Assembly (NCBI RefSeq): GCF_015482765.1
Contig: NZ_JADMLB010000012.1
Coordinates: 1 to 64,000, forward strand
DNA: 64,000 bases
Origin: Halodesulfovibrio sp.
GTDB lineage: Bacteria; Desulfobacterota; Desulfovibrionia; Desulfovibrionales; Desulfovibrionaceae
Direction: 5' to 3'
Below the pieces are notes generated by a model. That model was not told the origin of the DNA, did not search any database, and saw nothing but the letters and a program-made list of their open reading frames with translations. A program made the translations under genes and the position numbers. Of this stretch, positions 6,385 to 63,095 are shown piece after piece (position 1 is the first letter of the stretch; every line of letters begins with the position of its first letter).

Positions 6385-6415
6385 GGCATGTGCGTTGTTT
6401 TGGCTTAGATTTATG

Positions 6416-7663: not shown

Positions 7664-7675
7664 AAGGGAGGTTTC

Positions 7676-19752: not shown

Positions 19753-21231
19753 CTAGTTCTCTGTTGCGCGAGAAGCAGTGGTTTCTTCTTTGGTTTCAAA
19801 GAAAACAGGGATGGAGTTGTCGCCAAAGATACTTTCACGGATTTCAAGTTCAGGAGTGTTGCGGACTGTCTGAACTTGAATGAAGTAGAATCCAATACCC
19901 ATCATAATCCAAATTGCCATGAGAATCCAAGGCTCTCTTCCGATGATGGCCGGGGAGCCTGGAATGGTGAGCATACCAAGGATAATAAGAGAGGCAATTG
20001 CACCGAGAATAGAGCTCAGGTTTCTTTCACCGCGGGCAGCGAACATTTTGTAGCATGCCAGGCAGGTGTAGAGATACGCGATAACAGTGCCCACAGAGCA
20101 CATATCAACAATCCAGCCTACAACTGCGCGTCCAGCCCAAGGAGTGAGAAGGCTGATAGCGATGGTGAAAATGATTGCGTTATGCGGTGTGTGGTAAGTC
20201 GGGTGTACTTCTCCAAACCATGGCGGCAAAAATTTACCGCGGGCAATAGAGAAGATGAGACGGGTGGTAGCAAGGTAGAAGCCGTTCATTCCCGTACAGA
20301 CTGCTCCAAGAACGGCTGTACCCAGAATGATGCTGCCGAATTTACCAAGGGCAAGATGGGCAACAGTGCCGGTAGCCCATGCGTGGTCTTGAGCAAGCAG
20401 TTCTTTGTAAGGAAGAACACTGCCGACACAGAATGTGACAAGTGTGTAGAGCAATGCACCGATACCGATAGCGCCGAGCATAAGAACTCGTGCTTTCTTT
20501 GGAGAGAAAGAGAATTCTTCAGCAGCTTGAGGAATGGTGTCGAACCCAACGAATAAGAAAGGCGCAATAGCAACAACTGTGATGATAGACGCGAACGGGG
20601 ATTTGCCTTCTGCAAAGTGTGGAATAAGGTTTGAGAATGCAAATGTGTCTGTTGTAACAACACCGAAGGTCATTGCCAGTACGCCAAAAGTAAGAGCAAA
20701 GGCGAGAATAAGCTGAATGCTTCCTGCAACACTTACGCCGCGATAGTTCATGATGCCGAAGATGAGGATAGAGGCAGACATAATGAGCACTTCACCGACA
20801 TACACGTCCCATCCTGCAATGGTGTACAGGTAGCCGAATTCAAAGGCACCCGGTAGCAGGAAGCGGGCAAGAAGGGCTATTGCAGAGGCGTTGATGCCTA
20901 CAATGCTGAGATAGCCGAGTACCAGTGCCCAGCCGCAGACAAAGGCACCGACAGGGCCGAATCCTGCGTAAGCGTATGCAAACTCGCCGCCAGCTACAGG
21001 ATAATGCTCAATCATTTGGCTGTAGCTGAGTGCAACAACACTCATGACTATGCCGCCGATTGCGAATGCTATGATTGTAGCCAGAGGGCCTGCGTTAGGC
21101 AGAAAGGATATACCGGGAAGGACGAAACAGCCCCAGCCGACAATACAGCCGAGTGCCAGTGCGCCTACTTGCCAAGGGGATAGGCTTTTTTCAAGCGTGC
21201 CACGTTCTGTTTTTTGAGATGTTCCAGCCAT
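19753..21231 (-). CDS. APC-superfamily amino acid permease
   Basis: The inner-membrane transporter has about 492 residues and roughly 12 hydrophobic helices. The first helix, WQVGALALGCIVGWGCFVLPG, carries the small-residue substrate loop of amino acid/polyamine permeases. I start at ATG 21231 because GAGGAG precedes it and the protein then begins MAGTSQKTERGTLEKSLSPWQ; a longer frame to 21366 adds a basic, non-membrane extension with no support. The gene sits between the acylating dehydrogenase and the aminotransferase and probably imports the amine they degrade. The substrate is not determinable from sequence. Confidence 0.85.
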   Translation of the reverse strand: MAGTSQKTERGTLEKSLSPWQVGALALGCIVGWGCFVLPGISFLPNAGPLATIIAFAIGGIVMSVVALSYSQMIEHYPVAGGEFAYAYAGFGPVGAFVCGWALVLGYLSIVGINASAIALLARFLLPGAFEFGYLYTIAGWDVYVGEVLIMSASILIFGIMNYRGVSVAGSIQLILAFALTFGVLAMTFGVVTTDTFAFSNLIPHFAEGKSPFASIITVVAIAPFLFVGFDTIPQAAEEFSFSPKKARVLMLGAIGIGALLYTLVTFCVGSVLPYKELLAQDHAWATGTVAHLALGKFGSIILGTAVLGAVCTGMNGFYLATTRLIFSIARGKFLPPWFGEVHPTYHTPHNAIIFTIAISLLTPWAGRAVVGWIVDMCSVGTVIAYLYTCLACYKMFAARGERNLSSILGAIASLIILGMLTIPGSPAIIGREPWILMAIWIMMGIGFYFIQVQTVRNTPELEIRESIFGDNSIPVFFETKEETTASRATEN

Positions 21232-21408
21232 TATAACTCCTCGTTTGGATATGCGTTTGCGCCGTAAGGCGATTTTTCTTGCTGGCGGACATTCATAAGC
21301 GTCTACGTGTAGGGCACGGACATGAAATATAATCAATTTCAAACAAAAGTGGATAATCGTATCCACAATACTTCGTACGGGTAAGGCAGACGCCTATAGA
21401 AATAGGTG

Positions 21409-30029: not shown

Positions 30030-30050
30030 TTGATAATGAATTTCATTATA
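30030..30050. promoter_or_regulatory. Fur box upstream of the TonB receptor
   Basis: TTGATAATGAATTTCAT (30030-30046) matches 15 of 17 positions of the Desulfovibrio Fur consensus WTGAAAATNATTTTCAW. The overlapping GATAATGAATTTCATTATA (30032-30050) also fits the classical 19-bp Fur box and contains the perfect palindrome ATAATGAA-T-TTCATTAT. It lies about 40 bp before the receptor start codon. Confidence 0.8.
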
Positions 30051-30090: not shown

Positions 30091-32157
30091 ATGAAAAAAC
30101 AAGTAGGGGTGCTGCTTGTTCTAATCGGCATTATGCTGTCTTTGCCGATTAACGGACATGCAGAGGAAGAAAAGTCTTATTATCTTGAGGGAATGACTGT
30201 AACTGCTCAAAAGGTTGAGCAGAATATTCAGAAAATTCCAGGAACAGTTGAAGCTTATACTGATCTGGAACTGGATGAGAGAGTCATCAATAACTTCAGT
30301 GAATTTGTTGAGTATGTTCCAAACGTATTTTTACGTAAGAACAGTATTGACCAGGCAATCGTGATTCGTGGGGTTTCATCATTTGCAGGGTCTCTCTATT
30401 CGACTGCCGGCTTTTATGTGGACGGTGTTAACTATCCGATTCATCAGATGCAGGATTTAGATTTTTGGGACATCGAGCGAATCGAAGTGCTTAAAGGCCC
30501 TCAGGGGACTTTGTACGGACGTAACTCTGAGTCCGGTGTAATTAACATTGTAACAAAAAAGCCGAATTTTGACCTTAGTGCGAAGCTTTACACACAGCTG
30601 GGCGCATATGACGCGCATGGTGGAGAGCCGATTGCCCGTGGTGGTTTTGCAGTCAATGTTCCAGTTATTGATAACAAACTTGCCATGAAATTTTCCGGTC
30701 AGCGCGACTACTCAAGCGGCTGGATGGAGAACGAGTACAATGGTGACCATGCGTTAAAGACAAATCAGCTTGGTGGCCGATTTACTACTCTGTTTACGCC
30801 AACTCAGGATTTGGAATTTACAGCAATTATCGAGCAGCGCAAAAAAGATAACGGCGTAGGTGTATATCGTTACATTGAAGGTCCTAACAAAACTAAGCGC
30901 AACACACTTAATTGGAACGGTGCAAATGAGAACCGTGTTAATGCTGGTGCGCAGGTTTTAAAAGTGAATTATGACGCAGGCAATTTTGATATAGCCTCTG
31001 TTTCTGCTCATCACTTGTTCCACCAGCGTTACGCAAACGATGCTGATATGTCTCCGGCCGATTGGGGTGATTCCGGCGGTAAGAACCGGATTAAAATTTT
31101 AAGCCAAGAGTTACGTTTTTCTTCAAAGCCGGGTGAAGATCGTCTTTTTGATTGGTTAGGCGGATTTTACGGTTACCTTGAAGATGTGAAAACACGATAT
31201 GAAGCTGCTGGTTACACTCACAAAACAACACAAGATAACAGCGGTGCAGCAGCATTTGGTCAGGGTACATGGAATATTACCCGCAAATGGCATTTGACTG
31301 GTGGCTTGCGCGTTGACTGGCTGGGACTTGACGGTAAGAAGGATTTGACTGGTTATGGTGCTAAAGACACCTTCTCTGAATACCACTCCTATACTGAACT
31401 GTTACCTACTGCCAGCTTAGCATACGACATTACCGATGATATTTTGTCCTACGCCAAAATTAGTAAAGGCTATCTTGCTGGTGGGTATGATTACTCAACA
31501 GCAAAAGAAGCTGATCAGTTCTACTTTAAGCCAGAATACTCGTGGAACTACGAGCTCGGTTTAAAAACAAATCTGTTTGATAAAAGTCTGATTGCAAACG
31601 TTGCTTTGTTCTACATTACTATTCGAGACAAGCAGGTTGCACAGATGGAACCAACTGCTGGCGATCTGGAACGTCGCCGTATTGTAAACGCTGCGAAAGC
31701 CCGCTCTTACGGTGCTGAGCTTGACCTTCAATGGATACCAATTGCAGGTCTGACTATTAATGGTGGCGTAGGTTACCTTAATAGCCGCTTGAAGGATTGG
31801 AAGACTGAAGGAGCTGACGCGTTTGATTACGATAACAAAGTTACTCCTGGTTCTCCTGAGTGGTCCTACACCGCTGGTGGTACTTACCGTTGGGAATCTG
31901 GATTCCTTATCGGTGCAGATGTTGTTGGTGTAAGTTCCTTCTACACCGATACAAAAAATGACTCTAAAGTTGACGGACGTACTCTTGTAAACACTCGTGT
32001 TGGTTACGAGGGAGAAAACTTTGATATTATCTTCTGGGTGAAAAACCTCTTCGACAAAAAATATAATGAAAACGAATGGGCTTGGGGACCGGGCAGCACC
32101 ATCGCACAGCAGGGTGCTCCACGCTCCATGGGCGTATCACTTACATATAACTTCTAA
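30091..32157 (+). CDS. TonB-dependent outer-membrane metallophore receptor
   Basis: The 688-residue protein has a signal peptide (ending HAEEEK, about residue 27) and a TonB-box-like stretch LEGMTVTAQK. The plug domain (about 40-165) contains IVIRGVSS, FYVDGV, IERIEVLKGPQGTLYGRNSESGVINIVTK, and a 22-strand barrel ends with MGVSLTYNF, whose terminal Phe is the outer-membrane insertion signal. Length and organisation are like FyuA and other ferric-siderophore receptors. It sits directly behind a Fur box and leads the transport/tailoring arm of the NRPS-PKS locus, so the ligand is most likely the metal complex of that product. A strong terminator right after the stop codon would make it the most abundant product of the operon. 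Confidence 0.93.
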   Translation: MKKQVGVLLVLIGIMLSLPINGHAEEEKSYYLEGMTVTAQKVEQNIQKIPGTVEAYTDLELDERVINNFSEFVEYVPNVFLRKNSIDQAIVIRGVSSFAGSLYSTAGFYVDGVNYPIHQMQDLDFWDIERIEVLKGPQGTLYGRNSESGVINIVTKKPNFDLSAKLYTQLGAYDAHGGEPIARGGFAVNVPVIDNKLAMKFSGQRDYSSGWMENEYNGDHALKTNQLGGRFTTLFTPTQDLEFTAIIEQRKKDNGVGVYRYIEGPNKTKRNTLNWNGANENRVNAGAQVLKVNYDAGNFDIASVSAHHLFHQRYANDADMSPADWGDSGGKNRIKILSQELRFSSKPGEDRLFDWLGGFYGYLEDVKTRYEAAGYTHKTTQDNSGAAAFGQGTWNITRKWHLTGGLRVDWLGLDGKKDLTGYGAKDTFSEYHSYTELLPTASLAYDITDDILSYAKISKGYLAGGYDYSTAKEADQFYFKPEYSWNYELGLKTNLFDKSLIANVALFYITIRDKQVAQMEPTAGDLERRRIVNAAKARSYGAELDLQWIPIAGLTINGGVGYLNSRLKDWKTEGADAFDYDNKVTPGSPEWSYTAGGTYRWESGFLIGADVVGVSSFYTDTKNDSKVDGRTLVNTRVGYEGENFDIIFWVKNLFDKKYNENEWAWGPGSTIAQQGAPRSMGVSLTYNF

Positions 32158-32161
32158 CAGT

Positions 32162-32199
32162 ATGCGAAACCATCCGCTGGGTGGTTTCGCATTTTTTTG
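32162..32199 (+). terminator. intra-operon terminator between receptor and DUF4198 gene
   Basis: ATGCGAAACCATCC / GGGTGGTTTCGCAT (one G-U) with a 3-nt loop and seven T. The T-run ends exactly where the ribosome-binding GGAG of the next gene begins. Confidence 0.88.
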
Positions 32200-32208
32200 G
32201 AGAACAGC

Positions 32209-33054
32209 ATGGCAAGAAAATTATGGATTAACGCAACAGAATCATTTGGGTTACACAAATCTCTTGAAAACCCACCATGGCATTATTTTGTAAGCCTTGG
32301 TTTCGGACATGTCGTTCCTAACGATGACTTTATGGATGGCGCGTTAACCCTTGGCGAATATGAACTTGTAGATCCGTCTCTTAGTAGAACGCCACTCCCG
32401 ATGCCAGTTGCTGAAGTAGATACAGTTTCAGGTAAGGACGGCGTAACTATTGAAGCTGGTGATCTGGCTGCTCGCAAAATATCTTTTGATGAAAAAGCAG
32501 AAGTTGGAACACATCAAGTTACAGCTTCTACAAAAGAAGAGTTTTTTGCGCTTTGGGAAGAAGATGGTCAAGTTTGCACCGCTAATAAACCGTTGTCAGA
32601 AGTTAAAGATAAAAATGTACTTACCAGCGTAAAGTATCAGGCATTCGCAAAAACGTTCCTTAAGCACAAAGAATGGACTGAGCCTAAAGAACTTGGGCAT
32701 GCGCTGGAGCTTATTCCGCTTACTGATCTTAGTGATGTGCATGTGGGAGATTGGGTTACCTTTAGTGTGAAATTTATGGGTAAACCATTCTCTTGTACTC
32801 AGGAAACAATGGAATTTTTACTTGCATCTTCAAATACCTTCGGTGGTGAAGCCGGAGGTGAATTGGAAGGCTTCTTCTTGTCCGCCTACATTGTGAACGG
32901 CAGGGCACGAATTAAAATGCCGACAGCCGGTCAATGGCTTATCAACGTTTTCTCCCGTCAGGATGTAACTCCGGATAATGAGCTGAAAGAGCTCTCAGAT
33001 AGTTGCAACAGAGTCTACTTCGGCAGCAGCGTCACATTTAATGTAAAAGCTTAA
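32209..33054 (+). CDS. DUF4198-family protein lacking a signal peptide
   Basis: The protein has 281 residues from the ATG at 32209, which has GGAG six bases upstream. It is homologous along its length to the DUF4198 protein at 61847-62752. Shared segments include VGDWVTFSVKFMGKP and SSNTFGGEAGG-EGFFLSAYIVNGRARIKMPTAGQWLINVF. The relative has a signal peptide and mature start AHSLWVSLFES; this one begins MARKLWINATES at the equivalent position, with no leader. The DUF4198 family includes periplasmic components of nickel/cobalt uptake (NikK type). With no leader, this copy would be cytoplasmic, perhaps a metal- or ligand-binding partner inside the cell. The upstream terminator leaves no room for a missed signal peptide. 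Confidence 0.8.
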   Translation: MARKLWINATESFGLHKSLENPPWHYFVSLGFGHVVPNDDFMDGALTLGEYELVDPSLSRTPLPMPVAEVDTVSGKDGVTIEAGDLAARKISFDEKAEVGTHQVTASTKEEFFALWEEDGQVCTANKPLSEVKDKNVLTSVKYQAFAKTFLKHKEWTEPKELGHALELIPLTDLSDVHVGDWVTFSVKFMGKPFSCTQETMEFLLASSNTFGGEAGGELEGFFLSAYIVNGRARIKMPTAGQWLINVFSRQDVTPDNELKELSDSCNRVYFGSSVTFNVKA

Positions 33055-33061: not shown

Positions 33062-33091
33062 AGGGCGCTTTTATACAAGGCGCCCATTTTT
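33062..33091 (+). terminator. attenuating terminator between DUF4198 and exporter genes
   Basis: GGGCGC / GCGCCC stem with an 11-nt loop followed by ATTTTTAT, in a 49-bp gap. It is probably leaky, because the downstream genes have no other obvious promoter. Confidence 0.65.
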
Positions 33092-33103: not shown

Positions 33104-35437
33104 ATGACCGAACAATCACATGCTATTTTCAAACGAATGGGTGAAAAGCTTGTTCGTTTTCGTTGGTTGTCTTTACTTTTGGTGGTTGCTTTAACTGCTG
33201 GCTTCTTTTTTATGTCACAGGGACTGACTTTTAACGGTTCAACAAAAATCTGGTTCGTGGACAATGATCCGGCAATGAGCCGCCTTGATGTATTTAAACA
33301 GCAGTTCGGGAATGATCATTTTGTATACCTGATGCTCGAGCCAAACGAAGACAAAGGGATTTTCAAAAAAGATACAGTAACATCTTTGCGTAAACTGGCC
33401 GGTGAACTGGAACGTGAAGTTCCTTTTCTTAAAGACATGACGTGGGTAGGTAATGCAGAAGCTATCGATCCTACCAAAGACGGTATTCATATACTCAGAC
33501 TGTTTGAAGAAGATGTTCCTGAAGATCAAAATGGAGTTGCGGCGCGTGGCGCCCGTGCTCTAGAAGAGGAAGATTTTGTAGGACGTTACATTTCTGCTGA
33601 TGGTAATACTGCTGCTATTATGTTGGAAATGAGTGCGTACCCTGCCGATGCACAGAATCCTGAGGCGCAAGTTGCCTACACAGTTTACAATATTTTGGGA
33701 AAAAATGAATTTTCCGGATTGAAGTCATGGGTAGTGGGTGAACCTGCATTTATGTTCAACTACAACGTGCTGGCAGGTAAAGAAACACCTATGCTTTTTG
33801 GTGTTTGCATTTTGATTCAGCTCATACTTCTTGCGTTGCTCACAAGAACGATTCGTTCTTCACTCGTCCCCCTTTTGATTGTTGTTCTTAGTGTGCTGTG
33901 GACATTCGGCATTATCGGTCTTACCGGCCTCCAGCTGAACCTTATGATCATCGGACTGCCTGTCATACTTATTTGTGTAGGTATAGGTGATGCTGTTCAC
34001 GTAATTGTCGCGTTTAATGAGCGATACCAATCCGGAATACCACGTAAGGAAGCAGTCAAAGAAGCTATTGCGAGCGTCGGGTTACCGTGTTTACTGACTA
34101 CGCTGACAACCGCAGCAGGCTTTTTCTCTTTTATTGCCGCTCCTATTAAACCGTTTCAGGAAATGGCCTGGTATGTTCCGGGTGGTGTTATTGCGGCGCT
34201 TGTTCTTACTTTCCTCCTTGTTCCATTCTTTTTCTCTTTCGGTCGAGAACATCCAAAGAATAGTAAAGCTGTACCAGAGAGAAAAAAAGACGTTTTTGAT
34301 CGTCTATTTGTTAGGCTTGCAGATTTTGTAATTAAACGACCTAAGCAGATTGTAGCGTGTTTTTCTGTCTTTGTTGTTATCGGTCTTGTGGCAGCAAACT
34401 TTGTTCAGATCGAAACAAATAATACTCGGTTATTGAAAGAAAATGTGCCCATGCGTCAGGCGATTGAACATGTTGATGATACCATGGGCGGTTCAATGGC
34501 GTTAGAAGTTATTCTGGACACTAAAAAAGAAAATGGTGTTCGGAGCGCTGCCTTCCTTCATAAGATGGAGTTGCTTGAAAAGAGTATTGAGCAGCATAGA
34601 CTTGTGACTGACGTAACCAGTGTTTTAGATGCATTGCGCAAGGTCAGAAAAGGCATGCACGGTGGAGCTGAGGCATACTATTCATTGCCGGAAACCGATC
34701 GGGCTGTTTCCGATTATCTTCTTTTGTATGAAATGGCAGGCGGCGATCAGCTTGATAAGATGCTTTCTTTTGATGGCTCTATTGCACGGTTAAATGCTCG
34801 TACCACAGCACTCGGTACAGCAGAAGCACGTATTCTTCGAAACGCTATTTTAAAACAAGCAAACGCGCTATTCCCAGATGGAAGTGTAACGGTAGATACC
34901 ACTGGTTCTGTGGATTTGTCTGTAGCTCTTACTGATAACATAGCAACCGGACAAAATTCTAGTTTTGCATTGGCGTTTACGGTAATCGGCCTGATTATGA
35001 TGTGGGCAATGCGCTCTGTGAAGCTTGGCATGATCAGCATGCTTCCTAACGTCTTTCCAGTGTTAATGGTGCTTGGTCTTCTTGGGATTACCGGAATCTA
35101 TATGGATACGGTGGTCATGAGTGTGAGTGCCATGATTATTGGTGTTGCTGTTGATGACACCATTCATTTCTTTATCCGACTGCGTAGAGAGTTTGAAAAG
35201 ACCGGTGAGTATGAATCTGCCGTTCGTGAAACAATTATCGGCGCAGGACGTCCTTTGATGTTTACCACAATTACATTGGCTCTCGGTTTTGGTGTGTTGA
35301 TGATCTCAGCAATGATGGGCTGGGTTAAGATTGGTGCACTTGCTGGCTTTGCTTTTGCCTGCGCATTGCTTGCAGATTTGCTGCTGGCTCCTGCTCTTGT
35401 ATTGCTGCTCAAACCTTTTGACCAAAAGGAAGTGTAG
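33104..35437 (+). CDS. MMPL/RND-superfamily exporter
   Basis: The 777-residue inner-membrane protein has the internal duplication of RND pumps. Each half has one leading helix (about 22-42 and about 410-430), a large periplasmic loop and a five-helix sterol-sensing-like bundle. GIGDAVHVIVAFNERY in the first half and GVAVDDTIHFFIRLRREFE in the second are the helix-4 motifs with the Asp needed for proton coupling. At this length it belongs to the MMPL/HpnN group, which moves lipids and hydrophobic metabolites, rather than the 1030-residue drug RND group. Mycobacterial MmpL4/5 export siderophores by comparison. In this operon it probably exports the NRPS-PKS product, with the LolA-like and DUF1302 proteins encoded downstream. 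Confidence 0.85.
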   Translation: MTEQSHAIFKRMGEKLVRFRWLSLLLVVALTAGFFFMSQGLTFNGSTKIWFVDNDPAMSRLDVFKQQFGNDHFVYLMLEPNEDKGIFKKDTVTSLRKLAGELEREVPFLKDMTWVGNAEAIDPTKDGIHILRLFEEDVPEDQNGVAARGARALEEEDFVGRYISADGNTAAIMLEMSAYPADAQNPEAQVAYTVYNILGKNEFSGLKSWVVGEPAFMFNYNVLAGKETPMLFGVCILIQLILLALLTRTIRSSLVPLLIVVLSVLWTFGIIGLTGLQLNLMIIGLPVILICVGIGDAVHVIVAFNERYQSGIPRKEAVKEAIASVGLPCLLTTLTTAAGFFSFIAAPIKPFQEMAWYVPGGVIAALVLTFLLVPFFFSFGREHPKNSKAVPERKKDVFDRLFVRLADFVIKRPKQIVACFSVFVVIGLVAANFVQIETNNTRLLKENVPMRQAIEHVDDTMGGSMALEVILDTKKENGVRSAAFLHKMELLEKSIEQHRLVTDVTSVLDALRKVRKGMHGGAEAYYSLPETDRAVSDYLLLYEMAGGDQLDKMLSFDGSIARLNARTTALGTAEARILRNAILKQANALFPDGSVTVDTTGSVDLSVALTDNIATGQNSSFALAFTVIGLIMMWAMRSVKLGMISMLPNVFPVLMVLGLLGITGIYMDTVVMSVSAMIIGVAVDDTIHFFIRLRREFEKTGEYESAVRETIIGAGRPLMFTTITLALGFGVLMISAMMGWVKIGALAGFAFACALLADLLLAPALVLLLKPFDQKEV

Positions 35438-35445
35438 GTTGAATT

Positions 35446-36204
35446 ATGTCTAAATGGATAATGCCTAGCTTAAAGCGGGGTGGTGATGTGCAATTGTTCT
35501 GCTTTCCTTTTGCCGGTGGCGGTGCCTCGGCATATAGAACTTGGCTGCGTCAGCATTCGCCTCGTCTTGATGTAGCAGCTGTTCAGTTACCAGGGCGGGA
35601 GAATCGGATTGCAGAGCCATTACTTCACTCAATGGATGCGATACTCGGTGAGTTAGTTGAAGAACTGGCTTTGCAGATAACCGGTCCGTATGCCTTTTTT
35701 GGGCATAGTCTTGGTGCTCGTATGGCATTTGAAGTAGCAAGAACACTTCACAAGCGTGGGCATCAGCTACCTGTCCATATGTTTGTTTCAGGAAGTCGTT
35801 CTCCAGAGATTCCTGAACCGAGACCCTTGCATCAGTTGTCTGAGGAAAGGTTTTGTGAAGAACTCGGACGCTTTGGCGGAACTCCACGTGAATTAATGGA
35901 AAATCCTGAGTTAATGGCTCTCTATCTTCCAATTTTGCGGGCTGATTTTACCGTGGACGAAACATATGAATATAACCATGGCGATCCGTTGCCTGTTTCG
36001 ATCACAGCGTTTTGCGGAACAAATGATCCGGAAGCAACTACACAGGAAATGCTTGGCTGGAAACATCAAACGACGGAGCAATTCACGTTTAAGCAGGTTA
36101 CAGGTGATCATTTCTTTATTCAAAGTCAGTGGTCATATGTTTTGGATCAAATCGAAGAGACCGTAAAGGCAGGTGGTTGTGCAGAGCATTGCATTGCCAT
36201 GTAA
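35446..36204 (+). CDS. type II (editing) thioesterase
   Basis: The 252-residue alpha/beta-hydrolase is of the GrsT/YbtT/PchC class that accompanies NRPS-PKS clusters. It has FPFAGGGASAYRTW near residue 20, the nucleophile motif FGHSLGAR (Ser88), an Asp in GTNDPEAT (about 198) and the catalytic His in GDHFFI near the C-terminus. Its role is to clear wrongly loaded or stalled acyl groups from the carrier proteins of the assembly line on the opposite strand. It starts 8 nt after the exporter gene and its end is followed closely by the phosphopantetheinyl transferase. Confidence 0.92.
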   Translation: MSKWIMPSLKRGGDVQLFCFPFAGGGASAYRTWLRQHSPRLDVAAVQLPGRENRIAEPLLHSMDAILGELVEELALQITGPYAFFGHSLGARMAFEVARTLHKRGHQLPVHMFVSGSRSPEIPEPRPLHQLSEERFCEELGRFGGTPRELMENPELMALYLPILRADFTVDETYEYNHGDPLPVSITAFCGTNDPEATTQEMLGWKHQTTEQFTFKQVTGDHFFIQSQWSYVLDQIEETVKAGGCAEHCIAM

Positions 36205-36277
36205 TAATTTTGCTGAAGGGCATGATGCAGTCATTCCCCGGGCTGCATCTGCTCTCCCTTCAATAAGGCAATTAGGA

Positions 36278-36976
36278 ATGGAGGACTTGAATAGTAGTCA
36301 GTCATGCTGTTTTTGTGACGATGAAGTACATGCATGGGTGTTTAGTTATTCAGAGTTGTTCAACATTCCGACATTACAAGACAGCCTGTCCGCTCTTGAA
36401 TGGGAGCGGGCAGCGCTGTTTGCCTCGAAAAAATTTGCAGACAAATACTCCTATGCCAGAGGGGCACTTAGAGCTGTTCTTTCTCAATACAGCAGTGTCA
36501 CTCCAGAGAATATAACATTTGAGTATGCTGCAAGTGGCAAGCCCTTCATTAAGAGTAACCCCCTTTATTTTAATCTTTCACATTCAGGCGACCTAGTTTT
36601 TATTGTTGTTTCTGAGACTCACGAACTTGGCGTAGATGTTGAATTTTATCGCCCTATACCAGAGGCATTGTCCATAGCAGAGAATTGGTTTTCTGACATG
36701 GAAACTACATGGATTAAATCGTCGCCATGCAATGATGAAGCGTTCTTGCGGTGTTGGGTTATTCGTGAGGCTTTTGTGAAGGCTGTGGGCTGTGGTTTAA
36801 AGCTTCCGTTGGATTCTTTTGGAATATTACTGCCGGATTTTTTTTCAACGGAAAAAGAAATGAACGGTATTCGGTCTCCTTTAATTACAAAGCATGCTCA
36901 ATGTGATGACGTGCAGATTTTAGAATTAACACTGCAAAATAACTATCTCGCTGCCATAGCAGCGTTACGAGTTTAG
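36278..36976 (+). CDS. Sfp-type 4'-phosphopantetheinyl transferase
   Basis: The protein has about 232 residues. FADKYSYARGALRAVLSQY, SGKPFI, FNLSHSGD, LGVDVEFYRP (Mg-binding Asp and Glu) and CWVIREAFVKAVGCG are the ordered motifs of Sfp/AcpT enzymes that attach the phosphopantetheine arm to carrier proteins. The seven carrier domains of the two synthases are the expected targets. I prefer ATG 36278 because it puts the motifs at the usual distance from the N-terminus. A GTG at 36173 or 36179 in the same frame has a fair ribosome-binding site but would overlap the thioesterase gene and add a non-conserved leader. Confidence 0.88.
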   Translation: MEDLNSSQSCCFCDDEVHAWVFSYSELFNIPTLQDSLSALEWERAALFASKKFADKYSYARGALRAVLSQYSSVTPENITFEYAASGKPFIKSNPLYFNLSHSGDLVFIVVSETHELGVDVEFYRPIPEALSIAENWFSDMETTWIKSSPCNDEAFLRCWVIREAFVKAVGCGLKLPLDSFGILLPDFFSTEKEMNGIRSPLITKHAQCDDVQILELTLQNNYLAAIAALRV

Positions 36977-36985
36977 GAGAAAGCC

Positions 36986-37891
36986 ATGAGCGCAGTATCA
37001 ATCATGGATTGTATCGGGCACACACCTTGTCTTGAACTGAACATGCAGGGCGGGACGGTATTTGCTAAAGCAGAGTTTTTGAATCCGGGTGGTTCAATCA
37101 AAGATCGAATCATCCGTCATATTTTGGATAATGCAGAACAGGAAGGGCGCTTGACCCACGGAACGCATATCGCCGAAGCATCAAGCGGAAATACAGGTAT
37201 TGCTTTAGCTATGGCAGGTGCCGCAATGGGATACAAAGTTACTATTTTTATGCCGGAAACAGCCAGCTTGGAACGTCAGAAAATGATCCGTCATCTCGGT
37301 GCTGAAGTTGTATTGACTCCGGCAGGAGAGAGCGTTGGAGGAGCTGTGGATGCTCTCCACAGGTTGATAGCAGAAGAGGGCGATATTTTTACCGTCGGCC
37401 AATTTGTGAATAAAGAGAATATTCAGGCGCATTATCGAACAACTGCCAGAGAGTTGTGGGAGGATGTATCGTGTAATGTTGATTGCTTTATTAGTGGCAT
37501 TGGAAGTGGCGGAACTTTAATGGGCGTTGGTTTGTACCTGAAAGAGAAGCAGCCGAATATTCACATTGCTGCTGTTGAACCTAAGGGGGCTTCTGCTTTG
37601 CTCGGTCAGGCTAACTCACTGCATCGCATAGAGGGGATTGGAGACGGTTTTATCCCTGAAATTCTCCAACCTTCAATAATCAGTAATATTATTGAAATAC
37701 AAGATGATGTGGCAATGAAGTATGCCGCTGACTTAGCAAAAAGTCATGGGATTCTGGCTGGCATTTCTTCAGGTGCAAACTTGGCGGCAGCAGCGCAAAT
37801 TGCCAAAGAACATCCCGAATGGCGTATTGCGACAATACTTCCAGATCGGGCAGAACGGTATTTCAGCACTGGTCTTTTCGGAGCGATATAA
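36986..37891 (+). CDS. cysteine synthase-family PLP enzyme (O-acetylserine sulfhydrylase type)
   Basis: The 301-residue fold type II PLP enzyme has the PLP lysine in NPGGSIKDRI (about residue 38), the substrate loop ASSGNTGIALA (about 65), the phosphate-binding GIGSGGTLMGVG (about 172) and a C-terminal Ser in SSGANLAAA. The length and motifs fit cysteine synthase; SbnA-like diaminopropionate enzymes are the nearest alternative. Because all three adenylation domains of the locus have cysteine-type codes, a dedicated cysteine supply is the simplest role. AGGAGAAAG precedes the ATG. Its stop overlaps the next start (TAATG). Confidence 0.88.
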   Translation: MSAVSIMDCIGHTPCLELNMQGGTVFAKAEFLNPGGSIKDRIIRHILDNAEQEGRLTHGTHIAEASSGNTGIALAMAGAAMGYKVTIFMPETASLERQKMIRHLGAEVVLTPAGESVGGAVDALHRLIAEEGDIFTVGQFVNKENIQAHYRTTARELWEDVSCNVDCFISGIGSGGTLMGVGLYLKEKQPNIHIAAVEPKGASALLGQANSLHRIEGIGDGFIPEILQPSIISNIIEIQDDVAMKYAADLAKSHGILAGISSGANLAAAAQIAKEHPEWRIATILPDRAERYFSTGLFGAI

Positions 37892-39048
37892 TGAAACAAA
37901 TTGCGATCCTTGGAGGCTATGGAAATGTTGGAATGGTTGCAGCTTCATATTTGGTTAAAAAAGGTGGTGTAGATCTCTATATTTGTGGGCGTAATTACCA
38001 GTCTGCATCAAAAGCTGTTGAAAAGCTTGAGCGGCTGGCGGAGGAGCAAGGCAATATTCAGGACGTTCAATGCCGGCCATATCAAGTAGACATTCAACGT
38101 TCTGATTCACTGCGCAGCTTGTTAAGCACATGTGATGTGGTTGTGAATTGCACCGGCCCAACTGCTTTAATTGGTGATAAAGTTGCACGAGTGGCGATCG
38201 ATGCTGATTGTCATATGGTAGACCCCGGTGGGTATGACTATGTTATTGAGCTTATTAAAGATCTAGAGGACGTTGTTAAAGATAAAAAATTACAACTGTG
38301 CTTTGCCGCCGGTATTGTGCCGGGAATCTCTGCATCACTTCCGCTAGTAATGGCTAAACAGTTTTCACAGATTTTTTCTTTGAACAGCTATTTTGCCGGC
38401 GAGGATGTTTGGTCATACGGCTCCATGTATGACATGGTTTGTGGTATGGGCGAACTGAAAGAGCTTGGGGCGAGTCAGGCAAAAAATAAGAAACGTATTC
38501 CTCTTCCAGTTTCAGAGCGCTTTGTACATTTTCCTCAGCTTCCAGACCCCTTTGGTAAAAGTATAGCTCAACCGTTCTACACCAAAGAATTTGAGCGGGT
38601 AGTTAAAGACACAGAAGCTTTCTTAGGAAAATGCTTCTGGGTGAATACTGGCCCAGCCTTTTCTGCAACCCTCTCCCTTATGCGTATGCTTCGTTGCTAC
38701 CGGTCTCCGGCTTTGACGGATTTGGCTGCACGTTTGCTGTGCCGTGTTTCTGCATGGGATGGCAACCGTAGAACTTCGAAAGGATATATGCTGGTAACAA
38801 ATATTACTGGAGTTCAAGATGGTGCCGTAAGCTCCGTTCAAGGAACATTACGATTTCCTGACTCATACACAGGGACAGGTCTTGCGACAGCAATGATGGC
38901 ACATCGTATTGTAACCGGTGCTTCAAAAGCTTCTGGTATTGGCAGTTTTCCAAAGATGATTCCGCCAAAAGCCGTGATTGATGTGCTGCGGGAAGAAGGT
39001 ATTGAGATGGAATTACGTGAAGGAGAGAGTCATGCTGTTGCGTGTTAA
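37891..39048 (+). CDS. saccharopine-dehydrogenase-like NAD(P)-dependent reductase
   Basis: The protein has 385 residues. The N-terminal Rossmann motif IAILGGYGNVGMVAASYL (residues 4-21), an acidic/Arg cofactor selection region YICGRNYQSA, and VVNCTGPTALIGDKVARVAID are typical of the saccharopine dehydrogenase NADP-binding family. The C-terminal half is not clearly assigned. The ATG overlaps the cysteine synthase stop codon, so the two are coupled. In yersiniabactin and pyochelin clusters one thiazoline ring is reduced by a separate enzyme (YbtU/PchG) of a different family; a comparable tailoring step on this product is a reasonable guess, not a demonstrated function. Confidence 0.7.
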   Translation: MKQIAILGGYGNVGMVAASYLVKKGGVDLYICGRNYQSASKAVEKLERLAEEQGNIQDVQCRPYQVDIQRSDSLRSLLSTCDVVVNCTGPTALIGDKVARVAIDADCHMVDPGGYDYVIELIKDLEDVVKDKKLQLCFAAGIVPGISASLPLVMAKQFSQIFSLNSYFAGEDVWSYGSMYDMVCGMGELKELGASQAKNKKRIPLPVSERFVHFPQLPDPFGKSIAQPFYTKEFERVVKDTEAFLGKCFWVNTGPAFSATLSLMRMLRCYRSPALTDLAARLLCRVSAWDGNRRTSKGYMLVTNITGVQDGAVSSVQGTLRFPDSYTGTGLATAMMAHRIVTGASKASGIGSFPKMIPPKAVIDVLREEGIEMELREGESHAVAC

Positions 39049-39808
39049 TGTTACTTTCTTTTGTTGGTTGATCGTTTCAATTCTTATTCCGCAATCAGGT
39101 TTTTGTATTACCGGATTAGAAGTTGCGGAACGTATGGATGCTGTTGACACAAGCAAGTGTGGTGAAATGCAATCCATTATGCTTATAAAGCGCGGCTCAC
39201 AACAGCTTGTGCGTGCTATGGATGTTAAGAAAAAGAAATTTGAAGGCGTTGAAAAGCAGGTTATCCGTTTCTCAGAGCCTCAGGAAGTTCGTGATACTTC
39301 TTATCTTACATGGTCACATCAAGATATTGATAAGGAAGATGATATGTGGGTCTACATGCCGTCAGAGTCACTCGTTCGAAGGGTGAGTGGAGGCGGTAAA
39401 AAGGGGCCTTTCATGCGGAGCGATTATGCAAACGAGGATGTTTCTAAGCGTGAGGTGGCAGACGATACACACAAGCTTTTGCGTGAAGAGCAGTTATTTG
39501 GTGTGGATTGTTATGTAGTAGAAATGACACCAGTCCATCCGCACAAAACGAATTTTAGTAAACGTATTGTATGGGTGCGTAAAGATATATGGCTTCCTGC
39601 AAAAATTGAATACATCAACCATGCAGGTAAATCATACAAAGAACTGGTGTATGGTGGTTTCAAAAAAATCCAAGGAATTTGGACAACAACTCGCCAAAAA
39701 ATGACAACACCTTCCCGAGGTACAGTAACCATTATGGAGTACCGTAAGGTAGCATATGATACCGGTTTAAGTGACTCATTGTTTTTACAGACAGACTTGA
39801 AGCGCTAG
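39032..39808 (+). CDS. LolA-like periplasmic outer membrane lipoprotein-sorting protein
   Basis: The protein has 258 residues with a signal peptide (MLLRVNVTFFCWLIVSILIP, cleaved near GFC). It continues with GLEVAERMDAVDTSKCGEMQSIMLI and DDMWVYMPSESLVRRVSG, typical of the LolA-like family often encoded with MMPL pumps. The fold is a half-barrel that carries hydrophobic ligands across the periplasm. I start at ATG 39032, which has AAGGAGAG at the right distance and begins a clean signal peptide; it overlaps the preceding gene by 17 nt. With the MMPL pump and the DUF1302 barrel it would form a lipid-style relay exporting the metallophore. Confidence 0.8.
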   Translation: MLLRVNVTFFCWLIVSILIPQSGFCITGLEVAERMDAVDTSKCGEMQSIMLIKRGSQQLVRAMDVKKKKFEGVEKQVIRFSEPQEVRDTSYLTWSHQDIDKEDDMWVYMPSESLVRRVSGGGKKGPFMRSDYANEDVSKREVADDTHKLLREEQLFGVDCYVVEMTPVHPHKTNFSKRIVWVRKDIWLPAKIEYINHAGKSYKELVYGGFKKIQGIWTTTRQKMTTPSRGTVTIMEYRKVAYDTGLSDSLFLQTDLKR

Positions 39809-39869
39809 TTTCTGCATCATTTTCTTCTACTCAATCTTATTTGCACAGTTTCCGCAAAGATCACGAATT

Positions 39870-41258
39870 ATGACTCGAAAAATAGTATTCTCGCTTTGTG
39901 TCTTTATGTCTTGCCTGTTCCTGAGTGGGCATTGGGTTTTAGCTGAAGAAATAGACAGCACAGTTGGTGGAGATCCTTTTGCCAATGATGTGGGGTTTTC
40001 TATTCCTGAAGAGTTGATTGAGGATCCAAAAGCTGATGCCGATGGTGGTGTGTTTTCGTACGCTGGCTTTTTGGAATCTCGAAACCAGTTTGGATTGAAT
40101 ACCCCGCAGGAACCAATCTCTATGCGCCAGCGTCTGCGCGTTGAGACAGATTATCGTTACGATAAATTTTCTGCTTTTCTTAGTGTTGACGGTGATTATG
40201 AAATTGCGGCGCAATACTGGGATGGAACAGGGCATGAGGCTGTGTATGCTGTGCTCCGTAGTGGCTACGTAAGCTATGATTCTGAGCAATTTGATTGTGT
40301 GGTTGGGAGTAAAATTATTCGCTGGGGCACCGGTGACGGGATTAACCCTATGGATTTGATTAACCCATTAGATGTTCGTGATCCAATCGCGACAGGCAGA
40401 GCAGATAATCGTCTTCCGGTTTGGCTGGCAAGCGCCACATGGTTTATCGGTGACTGGACTCTTGAGGGAGTCTTTCTGCCTGTCGCGAGTGTAGAAGATA
40501 TTCCTAAACAGGGAAATCCTTGGGTTACACAGGGATTAAAAGAACTGTATCGAGGTGAAGATAATGGAACGCTTATTTTAGATTCGCAGGATGTTCCAGA
40601 TCGGTGGTTCAGAGATGTAGAAGTTGGTGCAAGGCTTTCTCGCAACTTTGATGGCTGGGATGTAGCATTTATTGCGTATCATGGTTTTGTGAACTCTCCA
40701 GTTTATGGCAGATATGAAACTGCTTCTGGAATTCCAGAATTTCGTCCTGAGCATCCTCGATTTACAGCCTTTGGGATTAACTTTGCTAAAGGAATTGGTG
40801 CAGGAACCATTCGTGGAGAACTTGCATATAAACCTCAATATCCCGTGGCAAGAGAGAGTAGCAGCAATGGCATTGGAAGGCGTGATCTTTGGCAGTGGGT
40901 TGCCGGAGGAGATTACGATTTTGATGGTGTTTATTACGTCAATGTTCAGTTTTTTATGGATGCTGTTTCTCAGTACTTTAGTACTTCCGATGAAGGATTT
41001 ATCGGTACAAAGCTATGGCACGGTTTCACTTACGAATTAAGCAGAAAGTTTTTTAGAGATGACCTTAAAGTGGGTGTGCGTGGTAAGGCGTATACCAGTG
41101 GTGATGGTGGACTTATTGAGGCATTCGGTGAGTATAAAATAGGTGATGATTGGAACTTGTCGACGGGCGTTATGATCTGGACTGGAGCAAATAATGGTTT
41201 GCTCGGGCAGTATGATAATAACGATCTGTATTACATTACTGCCCGATATTATTTTTAG
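39870..41258 (+). CDS. DUF1302-family outer-membrane beta-barrel protein
   Basis: The protein has 462 residues with a signal peptide ending near VLAEEID. The segment IIRWGTGDGINPMDLINPLDVRDPI (about 147-171) is diagnostic of DUF1302. The rest is alternating beta-strand and ends in LYYITARYYF with the terminal Phe of BAM substrates. DUF1302 proteins frequently accompany MMPL transporters and LolA-like or DUF1329 proteins. Here it completes the set inner membrane / periplasm / outer membrane. It is the last plus-strand gene, and its stop codon overlaps the stop of the convergent araC-type gene by 4 nt. Confidence 0.82.
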   Translation: MTRKIVFSLCVFMSCLFLSGHWVLAEEIDSTVGGDPFANDVGFSIPEELIEDPKADADGGVFSYAGFLESRNQFGLNTPQEPISMRQRLRVETDYRYDKFSAFLSVDGDYEIAAQYWDGTGHEAVYAVLRSGYVSYDSEQFDCVVGSKIIRWGTGDGINPMDLINPLDVRDPIATGRADNRLPVWLASATWFIGDWTLEGVFLPVASVEDIPKQGNPWVTQGLKELYRGEDNGTLILDSQDVPDRWFRDVEVGARLSRNFDGWDVAFIAYHGFVNSPVYGRYETASGIPEFRPEHPRFTAFGINFAKGIGAGTIRGELAYKPQYPVARESSSNGIGRRDLWQWVAGGDYDFDGVYYVNVQFFMDAVSQYFSTSDEGFIGTKLWHGFTYELSRKFFRDDLKVGVRGKAYTSGDGGLIEAFGEYKIGDDWNLSTGVMIWTGANNGLLGQYDNNDLYYITARYYF

Positions 41259-42256
41259 TTAATATTAAGATGTGAAGGGTGTTCAAGAGCTGTTTGTCGC
41301 ATCATATGTTCAGTTTGATATTTTTTAGGTTGCGAACCAAATTGTTCTACAAATGCACGGGACAAATGGCTTGGACTTGAAAAACCGCACTCATAAGCAA
41401 TTTCAGAAACATTTCGTCTACCATCTTCAAGCAAGCGTCTGGCACACTCAAGGCGCTCTTTTCTTAGTATTCCAAATACAGTGTTACCATATATCATTCT
41501 AAACAGTTTGTTTAATCGAGTATGGGAAAGCCCGACAGATTTAGCAAGTTCAGGTAACGACGGGGGAGTAGATATGTCCTCCATAAGTTTTGTATATGCT
41601 TTGCGTGTAGCTTTTTCTTCGAATTCGGTAATACCTTTACTTAGTGCTGCGATTGAATCAAGCAGGCTGAGCTGTGTGTAGAGCAACTCTAGTGCTTTAT
41701 ATTCTAAAAAAACTTTTTGGAAATTTCCTTCAAGAGGGCACTCGAGAATTTGTTTAGCGCTGATTTGAAGGGATAAAGGGATGGCTGCCTCTGTAAAGAA
41801 CGGGCAAGAGTTTTGTAGAGACGTTTCCTGCTCCATGAGGGAGAGAAGGGATGTCTGTTCTTTTGAAATGAGAGAAGAAAGAGCTTCCATGGAAACTTGT
41901 AGTCCGACAGCTTTAAGTGGTGTTCCAGAGCAGGTTTTTGAAACACCGCAGCAGTATGGAAGATAAGAGCAGGTGTAGGAACCGCTCTGGGTAGTCATTG
42001 TTTGCTCTTTACCGTTGCTATCAGATAAGCAGACGGTTGTTCTCCCTGAAAGGCAGTAAAGAAATTCTACAGGTGCATCCTGTTGTTCGAACTGAAATGT
42101 ATGATCTGCTGTAATGGCAGGGCAGTCTTGAACTAACAGTTTGATACCTGATCGGATCTGGTATTCATTCCACAAGCATTGCTCTTCTTTTTCAGAAATC
42201 CATGCTTCGCCGTTTGTGAATGCTTGCTTCCAATTGTTAATACTGATCTTAACCAC
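41255..42256 (-). CDS. AraC-family transcriptional regulator (PchR/YbtA-like)
   Basis: The protein has 333 residues. The C-terminal double helix-turn-helix domain (about 225-325) reads LPELAKSVGLSHTRLNKLFRMIYG and then RRNVSEIAYECGFSSPSHLSRAFVEQFGSQPKKY. The N-terminal part has the PchR-like segment TTQSGSYTCSYLPYCCGVSKTCSGTPLKAVGLQV. PchR and YbtA bind their siderophore and activate synthesis and receptor genes, so this is the likely ligand-responsive activator of both arms. The start codon is GTG with AGGAGGT five bases before it. It lies between the two arms, just beyond the terminator of the synthase operon. Confidence 0.9.
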   Translation of the reverse strand: MVKISINNWKQAFTNGEAWISEKEEQCLWNEYQIRSGIKLLVQDCPAITADHTFQFEQQDAPVEFLYCLSGRTTVCLSDSNGKEQTMTTQSGSYTCSYLPYCCGVSKTCSGTPLKAVGLQVSMEALSSLISKEQTSLLSLMEQETSLQNSCPFFTEAAIPLSLQISAKQILECPLEGNFQKVFLEYKALELLYTQLSLLDSIAALSKGITEFEEKATRKAYTKLMEDISTPPSLPELAKSVGLSHTRLNKLFRMIYGNTVFGILRKERLECARRLLEDGRRNVSEIAYECGFSSPSHLSRAFVEQFGSQPKKYQTEHMMRQTALEHPSHLNIN

Positions 42257-42312: not shown

Positions 42313-42363
42313 CAAAATAGTTAGTGGCGGCCTAAAATAGGCCGCCACTAACTATTTTTTTTT
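42313..42363. terminator. bidirectional terminator ending the synthase operon
   Basis: AATAGTTAGTGGCGGCC / GGCCGCCACTAACTATT with a 7-nt AT-rich loop, with A-run and T-run flanks. On the minus strand it follows immediately after the stop codon of the second synthase gene, and it insulates the araC-type gene from read-through. Confidence 0.93.
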
Positions 42364-45300
42364 ATCCTACCATGCTTTTCAAGTAGACAGGAAGCAGGTC
42401 ATTAAGTGATGGGAAGCAGATTGTACTATTTTGTAACGCCTTTTTTGCGTTGGAGTTATCAAAACGCAGCTGGCGAGAAATGCTTTCGGGATTCACTTCT
42501 TCTGGGAATAGAGGAAGAAGCGGGTAAAGCGGATTCTCAGGACGAGCAATGGCTTCTCGCCATCCGGCATAGGAAACCACTTTAAGCTCAGCTGTGCATT
42601 GTTGTAGTTTTTCAATCAACTGATGAGAGGAAACAGGATTAAATCCATCAAGATGATAAACATGTTCAGCGAGTTCCCCACGGGCAATATGTACGAGGGC
42701 TTCAGCGACTGTGTCTACAGGCAGGAAGTTCTCAATTCGCTGGAGATCTGGAATAACTCCTGCTTGCAATGATCCTTGTATGATTCTCCACAGGAAATCT
42801 TCTTTGTTCCATGTTCCGTTTGAACTTGTTCCTGTGATAAGCCCCGGACGGTAAATGTATGCAGGTAGCCCAGCTTCAATTGCATTCTGTATCAGACGTT
42901 CAGCTAGCCATTTACTTTGCGGGTATCCACCAAAGACGTTCATATCTTGTTCAATGTGTTCGTCTTCTAGAATAGTCAGATCGTCGGTGCATCGTAGCGG
43001 TGAAAAAACAGATACCGTAGATACATGATGCAGTGGTTTGACAATTCCTGTTGATGCCAGGCGAATCGCCTCTCGGGTACCAATAACGTTTGGCCCGAGC
43101 AAACTTTCGCAGGAATAGATGTAATGGACAAGCGCTCCGGCATGGAAGACAGCATCTACTTGCTCGGAAAGAGCGGTGAAGTCGCTTTCTGATAATCCAT
43201 AGTATTTTTGAGAAAGGTCACCATTCACGGCTTGAATATTGGTTATCCATGGCGTGAGTGAGAAACCATATACCTGAGCTGTATCGAGAATACGTTGTAT
43301 GCCGCTCTGCTTACCTTTTGCACGCACAAGGCAGGTTACGTTTTCAGCACCATTTTCCAGCAGAGATTTGAGAACATGGATTCCAAGGAATCCAGTTGCT
43401 CCAGTAATAAATGGTTTTTTAAAGGTGCCTTGAACGGTTGGCAAACCAGAAATGTCAGGCCTGAACGCGCAAACAGGATGTTTTTTTAAAACGTCTACGT
43501 GCACGATATCTACTATAGATGATGCTTCTTTTTCTTGAAGAGGTTCACTTTCAACAGAAGGTATTGTCTCATCTTTTGAGCATTTAGTTGCTAGGCTTGG
43601 ATGCTTTTCTATGAGGTATTTGCTGAGTAATTCAATTGTCGGATTTTCAAATAAGCGTGGCAGCGCAAGGCTTACATCTAATGCATTGCGGATTCCCAGA
43701 ACGAGCTGAGCCGCAAGCACAGAATCTCCTCCAGCGTTAAAGAAGTCCATATCAAGTGGTGTGTGATCTAATTGAAGCAAGTCATTCCATACCTCAGTAA
43801 TTGTAGCCTGAAGCGGAGTCAGTTCAGTTGAGACTTCAGCCTGCTTTTCAGGCCTTGCATCTATCGCAGGCTGTGGAAGTTGTTTACGGTCAACTTTTCC
43901 ACTTGGTGTCATTGGAAACTCTTTCATTGCAACATAGTATGCAGGCACCATATATCTTGGAAGTTGCTCCGCAGCGTATGAAGCTAGATCGTGTTTTTGA
44001 GCTGTGCCCGAATAGTATGAGACTAGGGCTGTACCGCTATTCGTAGTGATTGGGGTAACAATCATTTGGTTCACTTCAGGGTGGGCTGATAATACATGTT
44101 CAATTTCTGAAGGTTCAACGCGATGCCCTCTGATTTTCACCTGAAAATCTCTTCGCCCTATAATTGTTAAATAACCTTCAGGCATAAATGCTCCCATATC
44201 TCCAGTCCGGTAGATACGTTTTCCAGTCTCTGGATGAGTAAGGAATGCATTTTGGGTAAGATCATCGCGGCCATAATAGCCTTGTGCCAGTCCTTTACCG
44301 CCAATGTATAAGTCTCCAACCACATGCTCAGGACAAGCCCCCAGACCGCTGTCTAGTACATACCACTCTTGGTTCATCATAGGACGACCATACGGGATAG
44401 GGCCGTCTTCTGGAGAATAGTTTTTTATTGGGTGGCAGATAGACCAGATAGATGCTTCGGTGGCACCGCCAAGGCTGTTTGGAACTGCGTTTGGGGCAAT
44501 CTGTTGCAGTGCTTGAGGCATATCTGGAACGATTTTATCTCCGCTAAGCATTGCAAGGCGCAGGTGAGAGAAGGTGCGCTTTGCTGCTTGTGCGTACTGG
44601 ATAGCCAACTGCATTAATGCAGGGGCAGAGTTCCATATTGTGCATTTGTATGATGCTAAACAATCAATCCAATGCTCTGGATCGTTTTGTCTTGAATCAT
44701 CTGGTAAGACTAAAGTGGCTCCGGCTGCAAGAGCTCCGAATATATCATAAATTGCTAAGTCGAAAGTTAATCGGGATACACCGAATATCACATCGTTATG
44801 AGAGACGGCATACCGTCTGTTGATGTCAATCAGTGTGTTTACTGCCGCCTCATGCGTAATACTTACTCCTTTAGGTTTTCCAGTAGAACCGGAGGTGAAA
44901 ATGATGTACGCGAGGTCGCTATTTGAAACAGGGCCAGAGTAATTTTCTGGTGAGTCTGTGGTTGTATTCGGAGCCACATGTGTGACGTTCTCGCTGAATG
45001 ATTCTTCTGCGATGATGAAAGCGAGGTTGCTCTCCTCAGCAATAATCTGTTTACGACTTGCTGGTTGTTCGTGAGCAATAGGTACGAATACAGCTCCGAC
45101 AGCTTGCGTACCTAATACTGCTGCAATTTGATCAATTCCTTTAGGTAAGCTGATGCCGACAAGAGTGTTGGGCCTTACTCCAAGTTCAGATAATCGAGAT
45201 GCAAAGCCGGCAGCACGCGCTCCGAGTTCGCCGTAAGATATCTCTTCGGAAGAACAAATGATTGCGGTCGCATCTGGCGTTGCGTTGTATTTAGCTGTGA

Positions 45301-51892: not shown

Positions 51893-51908
51893 AATGATAT
51901 CCTTGTGG

Positions 51909-61802: not shown

Positions 61803-61846
61803 AAAACCACCTGAATAAGTTTGCCCCGCCGGAGCGGGGCATGTTG

Positions 61847-62752: not shown

Positions 62753-62783
62753 AAGAGTCTCCAAGTAAAGTTACTGTCTGTGA

Positions 62784-63089: not shown

Positions 63090-63095
63090 TTTCAA
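63079..63095. promoter_or_regulatory. Fur-box-like sequence over the start of the synthase operon
   Basis: On the minus strand TTGAAAATGAAACTCAT matches 14 of 17 positions of WTGAAAATNATTTTCAW. It overlaps the start codon of the first gene. It could be chance, since it codes for the signal-peptide start, but it repeats the core seen at 63362. Confidence 0.4.

Follow-up and report, generated by a model that had tools for sequence, protein, structure and literature searches.

Background

What is known of how Gram-negative bacteria pass siderophores over the periplasm and the outer membrane mostly concerns TolC-type conduits. In mycobacteria, whose outer envelope is different, siderophores are reportedly exported by MmpL4 and MmpL5 (PMC3561183, PMC11524445, PMC12803245). 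These MMPL-family pumps have an MmpS partner and a coiled-coil insert and are not known to use a LolA-like carrier. Here we describe a locus in a 64-kb window, the whole stretch of DNA analysed, from Halodesulfovibrio sp. (Desulfobacterota; Desulfovibrionia; Desulfovibrionales; Desulfovibrionaceae; GCF_015482765.1, contig NZ_JADMLB010000012.1, positions 1-64,000, forward strand), probably an anaerobic sulfate reducer to judge from its relatives. Genes for an MMPL pump, a LolA-like periplasmic carrier and an outer-membrane barrel (the trio) lie there beside a polyketide synthase-nonribosomal peptide synthetase (PKS-NRPS). Described siderophore secretion systems of Gram-negatives include VexGH-TolC, AcrAB-TolC and PvdRT-OpmQ, the last of which re-exports pyoverdine (passages of PMC8277102); these are continuous tripartite conduits without a soluble carrier and differ from the trio in this respect.

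The arrangement of pump, LolA-fold carrier and barrel is already known. AmeABCD of Castellaniella defragrans comprises an HAE3 RND pump, a LolA-superfamily (DUF1329) periplasmic protein and a DUF1302 outer-membrane protein (passages of PMC6394551), and is like the window trio in holding a pump, a LolA-fold carrier and a DUF1302-type barrel in one cassette. It differs in its role in monoterpene tolerance, in the extra periplasmic protein AmeC and in its 451-aa DUF1329 carrier, and iron genes go unmentioned in the cited passages. In Pseudomonas putida, a DUF1302 barrel, a DUF1329 carrier, an efflux transporter and a periplasmic protein (PP_0765, PP_0766, PP_2018 and PP_2019) are a proposed substrate transport system; this set differs from the window in its two loci and its requirement for growth on Tween 20, with no synthase mentioned in the passages (PMC10866462). 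The aryl polyene proteins ApeM, ApeL and ApeN include an RND pump and a LolA-like carrier within a specialised-metabolite biosynthetic cluster, and differ from the window in a LolB-like protein in place of the barrel, in a product that remains in the envelope and in the absence of an iron link from the passages cited (PMC8253772). BstABC is a sterol analogue (passages of PMC10942540), and other relatives perhaps serve long alkanes (passages of PMC6304351). A preliminary description of the locus had suggested that a Gram-negative siderophore pathway with a LolA-like shuttle would be new. The architecture is not new, as the aryl polyene proteins, AmeABCD and the set from P. putida show; what would be new is its dedication to iron. 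No paper tying a LolA-type carrier to siderophore export was found in the open-licence literature, outside which most subscription papers and separate preprints lie.

Iron does bear on some relatives. In Porphyromonas gingivalis, an operon with MMPL, LolA-like, ABC and TetR genes is raised 13- to 136-fold in low iron, and like operons of Prevotella intermedia are strongly raised (passages of PMC10434189). These iron-responsive operons (e.g. PG1175-1181) share a pump clade with the window, represented by L002 (Prevotella nigrescens; gene order TetR-ABC-ABC-MMPL-LolA-barrel) and L067 (Porphyromonas circumdentaria); they differ from it in having an ABC pair and no synthase, and the cited passages do not assign them to siderophore export.

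Results

The trio given in the preliminary description proved real: the MMPL/HAE3 RND pump (33104-35437), the LolA-like carrier (39032-39808) and the barrel (39870-41258), all on the forward strand, would together span all three compartments of the envelope. We judge it somewhat probable that they are dedicated to carrying the amphiphilic thiazoline-type siderophore of the adjacent PKS-NRPS through the envelope. This reading draws on which genes are present and conserved together, on their predicted folds and promoter-like sites, and on a clade-wide link to iron-uptake genes; from it we infer the substrate, the direction of export, contact among pump, carrier and barrel, and regulation by iron. 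The pump would use the proton gradient to extract the siderophore from the inner membrane, the LolA-like protein would shield its greasy part and ferry it over the periplasm, and the barrel would release it through the outer membrane or place it there; a TonB-dependent receptor (TBDR) and FeoB would afterwards return the iron.

The pump, a 12-helix protein of 777 residues, scored 131.5 bits against PF03176 (cut-off 20.5) and is thus an MMPL-domain protein. Its best NCBIfam model was TIGR00921 (HAE3), at 222.5 bits, below the model cut-off of 351.9. The nearest folds to the structure model (predicted local distance difference test score, pLDDT, 89.7) were NPC1L1, NCR1, Patched, AcrB-type pumps and MmpL4/5, with Z of 41-44 against RND structures and all nearest folds within about 3 Z units of one another. 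The relay residue Asp684 was present in 86/86 aligned rows. Like MmpL4 and MmpL5 the pump is of the MMPL family, and the fold match is close (root-mean-square deviation 3.3-3.9 over 677-697 residues); against the MMPL-family model TIGR00833, taken as the mark of MmpL4/5-type exporters, it reached 129 bits, far under the cut-off of 874.7. No neighbour was named MmpS in the Pfam scans, although no search aimed at MmpS was made. AcrB-type chains run to about 1,000 residues, and the much shorter pump would therefore fit a soluble carrier rather than a TolC conduit.

The carrier scored 192.3 bits against PF17131 (LolA_like; E=8e-57; cut-off 30), and LolA_like and DUF1329 were its only Pfam matches at E up to 0.001. 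The listed open reading frame (ORF) starts at 38978 with TTG; a signal-peptide-like stretch follows the ATG at 39032, which is likely the true start. Relatives of solved structure are PDB 4z48, 9tp6, 3bk5 and 3buu. The barrel gene follows after a gap of 61 bp. Its product had been called a DUF1302 protein, a label that holds through intermediates only: for the window protein itself Pfam, PF06980 (DUF1302) included, gave nothing at thresholds as loose as E=1 and NCBIfam gave no match, and PF06980 was matched by 32/40 members of the barrel alignment (best 2.9e-30), with a Prevotella relative annotated as DUF1302. The exporter AlgE and the OprD/Occ porins were matched by the structure model (pLDDT 87.2) at a VIA-align Z of about 22; a PDB sequence search led nowhere. 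The barrel is thus described here, from aligned relatives and fold, as a diverged DUF1302 relative.

The synthase is encoded on the reverse strand. PKS-NRPS 1 (51909-61898) begins with a stretch and a KS resembling Pks13 and reads KS-AT followed by two Cy-A-PCP modules, with a predicted N-terminal carrier domain. By domain and motif reading, PKS-NRPS 2 (42362-51985) is KS-AT-(DH)-KR-ACP-Cy-A-PCP-reductase, so that cysteine modules two and three are separated by the KR-bearing PKS module, and the reductase, an NAD_binding_4 domain in Pfam, terminates the line. All three A domains are cysteine-type by motif, with FDL(S/A)...SLGGATE..IW cores in 3/3, and the cyclisation (Cy) condensation domains have DxxxxDxxS motifs; the reading follows the general specificity codes and module logic of such synthases. 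BmdB and PchE were among the best structure matches of the synthase domains. With its Cy domains and cysteine-type A domains the synthase resembles yersiniabactin and pyochelin assembly, and its predicted product would be an amphiphilic thiazoline-type siderophore (metallophore). The scan of 30 window ORFs turned up no stand-alone AMP ligase that could serve as a salicylate ligase. The reductase end of the synthase and the thioesterase gene adjoining the pump could also be taken to mean that the trio clears stalled or reactive aldehyde products from the membrane and does not secrete a useful siderophore, much as AmeABCD confers monoterpene tolerance (passages of PMC6394551). We regard such self-protection as very improbable, since it leaves unexplained the TBDR, FeoB, the TonB operon, the Fur-box-like sites and the related loci in the pump's clade that have no synthase.

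In agreement with the preliminary description, Pfam recognised no ABC or MFS exporter in the 30 window ORFs scanned, a subset of all those listed, if an amino-acid permease (19753-21366) is set aside.

Fur-box-like sites were sought by sequence match to the classical 19-bp Fur consensus within 4 mismatches. The window held two, one at each operon promoter: a palindrome at 30032-30050, 41 bp before the TBDR start, with 16/19 consensus matches (0.04 expected in the window at 3 mismatches), and a site with 4 mismatches of 19 at 63075-63093, upstream of the synthase operon. Genome G007 of the same genus has two sites at like positions, one ahead of the TBDR and one ahead of the synthase operon. 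G004, also of the genus, and G059 (Pseudodesulfovibrio sp. MAG6, made up of L034 and L118) likewise have a pair of sites apiece: one in the divergent promoter of FeoA and PPTase (4'-phosphopantetheinyl transferase), the other preceding the DUF3450/ExbB/TonB genes. The hits in these four loci, 8 in all, thus fall without exception at promoters of these operons or of the TonB operon, against 0-0.2 hits per locus in shuffled sequences, a pattern that would fit regulation of the window locus by Fur and iron. Most other in-clade loci had no such site. Among the other stretches scanned, none was found in L118, G010, L124, L126, L127, L053, L042, L067 or L002. L038 had five hits (one, by the AraC gene, with 1 mismatch), L039 one inside the barrel gene and L040 one. 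A Desulfovibrio-type Fur pattern gave 14 hits against 9 expected and led nowhere.

The trio is conserved with the synthase in four genomes. In G007 the whole cluster stands in the window's order and is joined by DUF3450 and TonB genes, with ExbB- and TPR-like frames lying among and behind these. G004 and G059 carry the trio, NRPS, TBDR, PPTase, cysteine-synthase-like (PALP), saccharopine-dehydrogenase-like (SDH-like), FeoAB, AraC and TonB genes in an order that differs from the window's, and their NRPS is of another build (AMP-ligase-PCP-C-A). Common to all four are the trio, NRPS, TBDR, AraC, PPTase, PALP, SDH-like enzyme and FeoB or FeoAB. In G004 the pump is fused to the SDH-like enzyme in one 1168-aa frame (L016 and L017 joined, 33332-36838); the two are encoded by adjacent separate genes in G059 and stand several genes apart in the window. 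Within the genus the pump occurs in 3/10 genomes, with condensation domains beside it in 3/3; G002, G003 and G006 have condensation domains, up to nine matches, without this pump. In G010, from another genus of the family, a trio cut by the contig end lies beside another synthase with cysteine-type A domains. In G067 a trio of this kind is paired with a synthase for a second time, and independently.

A scan of the database with the carrier alignment gave 579 confirmed loci, the best 80 of which were taken. Found through the carrier alone, these held a barrel in 75 cases, an MMPL gene in 71 and all three genes in 66, and the trio as a set of chance neighbours was rejected on this count. A strong NRPS match lay within the flank examined in 1/80 (L034), and the trio is accordingly rejected as a marker of NRPS loci in general. 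Most of the trios found have no NRPS or iron genes next to them.

The MMPL tree comprised 86 rows, drawn from database loci, relatives, L002 and the window. Loci without an MMPL frame of more than 500 aa were left out; these include L034 (which enters through L118), L035 (whose frames are split), L036, L081 and G010. Neighbouring TBDR, ExbB/TonB, YbtPQ-like ABC or FeoB genes constituted the iron mark. All iron-marked rows (18/18) fell in one 22-row clade with a Shimodaira-Hasegawa-like approximate likelihood ratio test (SH-aLRT) support of 99, and 0/64 rows were marked outside; the mark requires 5 changes on the tree. The rows marked for both NRPS and iron (the window, G007, G004 and G059) formed one group with support 95. 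Among stretches of at least 15 kb the mark was found in 16/17 in-clade and 0/31 outside, so that an effect of longer stretches alone was rejected. Tree rows are not independent samples, and Fisher values are to be read as a strong contrast only. The marker hidden Markov models were seeded mostly from in-clade loci, which favours the clade and may lower sensitivity elsewhere; a Pfam control over 52/53 neighbour ORFs of 500-1150 aa (one barrel excluded) from 56 out-of-clade database loci gave 25 most widely shared families that included none of TonB receptors, single-member families being not all shown and 39 further ORFs from nine relatives' loci lying outside this control. The window's tree label was set by hand and that of G059 comes from L118 alone; the NRPS label overlooked the G067 trio, which does adjoin a PKS-NRPS. 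The LolA tree, built under a simpler model, disagrees with the MMPL tree and places iron-type rows in two groups, L096 in the second.

As a hold-out, 297 genomes were searched, 105 had a carrier match and 20 places were taken (twelve high scorers and eight lower). An MMPL gene of more than 400 aa was present in 15/20 stretches, and in a FastTree tree iron neighbours accompanied 3/3 in the clade and 0/12 outside; the rows left out (L123, L125, L129, L131 and L134) were all unmarked. Trios of L100 (Cloacimonadota) and L105 (Fibrobacter) lie near FeoB-like genes, and a TonB receptor was not detected there.

That most out-of-clade relatives adjoin neither NRPS nor iron genes, and that relatives serve monoterpene tolerance (PMC6394551), growth on Tween 20 (PMC10866462) and perhaps long alkanes (PMC6304351; all in passages), would be expected if the trio were a general outer-membrane set for lipids and hydrophobes, present in this operon only by happenstance. 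The iron-gene link is, however, specific to the clade and preserved despite rearrangement and change of NRPS, and we hold such a general role to be improbable.

The remaining genes of the locus lie on both sides of the trio. On the forward strand, a siderophore-receptor-like TBDR (30091-32157; PF00593, PF07715; TIGR01783 at 195 bits, under the cut-off of 223.5) and a DUF4198 protein (32197-33054; PF10670) precede the pump. Pump and carrier genes are not contiguous: tightly packed between them are a type II thioesterase (35446-36204; PF00975), a PPTase (36173-36976; PF01648), a cysteine-synthase or SbnA-like PALP enzyme (36986-37891; TIGR01136 at 338 bits and TIGR03945 at 218, both under cut-off) and an SDH-like enzyme (37891-39048, listed ORF from 37819; PF03435). 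The SbnA/CysK-like PALP adjoins the SDH-like enzyme (36986-39048), and by analogy the pair could make diaminopropionate or supply cysteine. Terminator-like hairpins at 32162-32192 and 33063-33085 set apart the TBDR, DUF4198 and MMPL genes and may leave the pump less strongly expressed than the receptor; the single operon of the preliminary description is therefore uncertain, its three-compartment relay being borne out. After the barrel come, on the reverse strand, an AraC-type regulator (41255-42256; PF12833), the synthase genes and a second DUF4198 gene, the first of the synthase operon (61847-62764; PF10670). A hairpin of twenty pairs lies at 42314-42358, between the AraC gene and PKS-NRPS 2. 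FeoB starts on the forward strand at 63849-64000 and continues to contig position 66338 beyond the window (PF02421). An Rfam search of the window gave no match. Molybdopterin hydroxylase genes near 2-hydroxyglutaryl-CoA-dehydratase-like genes (2059-10508) apparently have no relation to the trio.

Discussion

The tie of the pump clade to iron strengthens the idea of export. Siderophore export by a relay had been put forward from this locus, and the siderophore-type synthase next door, the Fur-box-like sites at both promoters and the iron-linked pump clade speak for it; direction and substrate are the parts that would follow from context. Co-occurrence with NRPS genes, proposed as a check, extends to NRPS, TBDR, FeoB and AraC in four genomes, and most of the family lacks such a synthase. 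A trio found mostly without this synthase, which had been named as a refutation, is thus true of the family as a whole and untrue of the small group holding the window pump.

Several observations weigh against a dedicated export route. The architecture is known and most of the clade has no synthase nearby, which weakens the idea: the NRPS mark falls on 4/22 in-clade rows, and most in-clade loci lack an NRPS in the stretch examined. Several also carry a YbtPQ-like ABC pair or an MFS protein able to do the export. L037, L043, L075 and L087 are in the clade yet unmarked; the LolA-group members L036, L082, L096, L101, L123 and L125 are unmarked too. In G067 the trio (L119-L120), with a longer carrier of 419 aa, immediately precedes a PKS-NRPS, has a PPTase in its vicinity and lies outside the iron clade with no iron marks. 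The Porphyromonas and Prevotella operons are without a synthase (as seen in P. nigrescens), and P. gingivalis reportedly makes no use of siderophores (abstract of PMC13227078), so the common substrate of the clade may be something else.

The main rival is accordingly a role in iron uptake and not in primary secretion, in which the trio would recycle the siderophore after iron release, or extrude another iron-linked amphiphile such as a haem-related compound or a xenosiderophore, as PvdRT-OpmQ does with pyoverdine (passages of PMC8277102). In-clade L038, L039, L053 and L124, which have a TBDR and a YbtPQ-like ABC pair and no synthase in the stretch examined, agree with it, as do the ABC pairs of L002, L067 and L126 and the low-iron induction in oral Bacteroidota (passages of PMC10434189). 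Recycling would nevertheless call for another pump for first export, and no ABC or MFS pump was found for this among the window ORFs scanned; moreover, the trio accompanies synthase and PPTase in four genomes. We consider recycling unlikely, and export of the locus's own siderophore the most likely function.

Conclusions

The trio suggests that iron scavengers may be exported or recycled by a new route. There is, in our estimate, an even chance that the MMPL-LolA-barrel clade of several phyla is a dedicated Gram-negative iron route, in which a proton-driven pump, a soluble shuttle of lipid type and a barrel export metallophores, or re-export them once the iron is released, with no conduit of the TolC type, and that desulfovibrio-like bacteria couple it to the synthesis of thiazoline or acyl-peptide siderophores under Fur control. 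If true, an iron-tied pump clade with a LolA-fold carrier would add a carrier-based route to those known, and the iron-induced, unexplained operon of Porphyromonas and Prevotella would gain a testable function. It would also point to siderophore production in probably anaerobic sulfate reducers, where ferrous iron would seem to remove the need for them.

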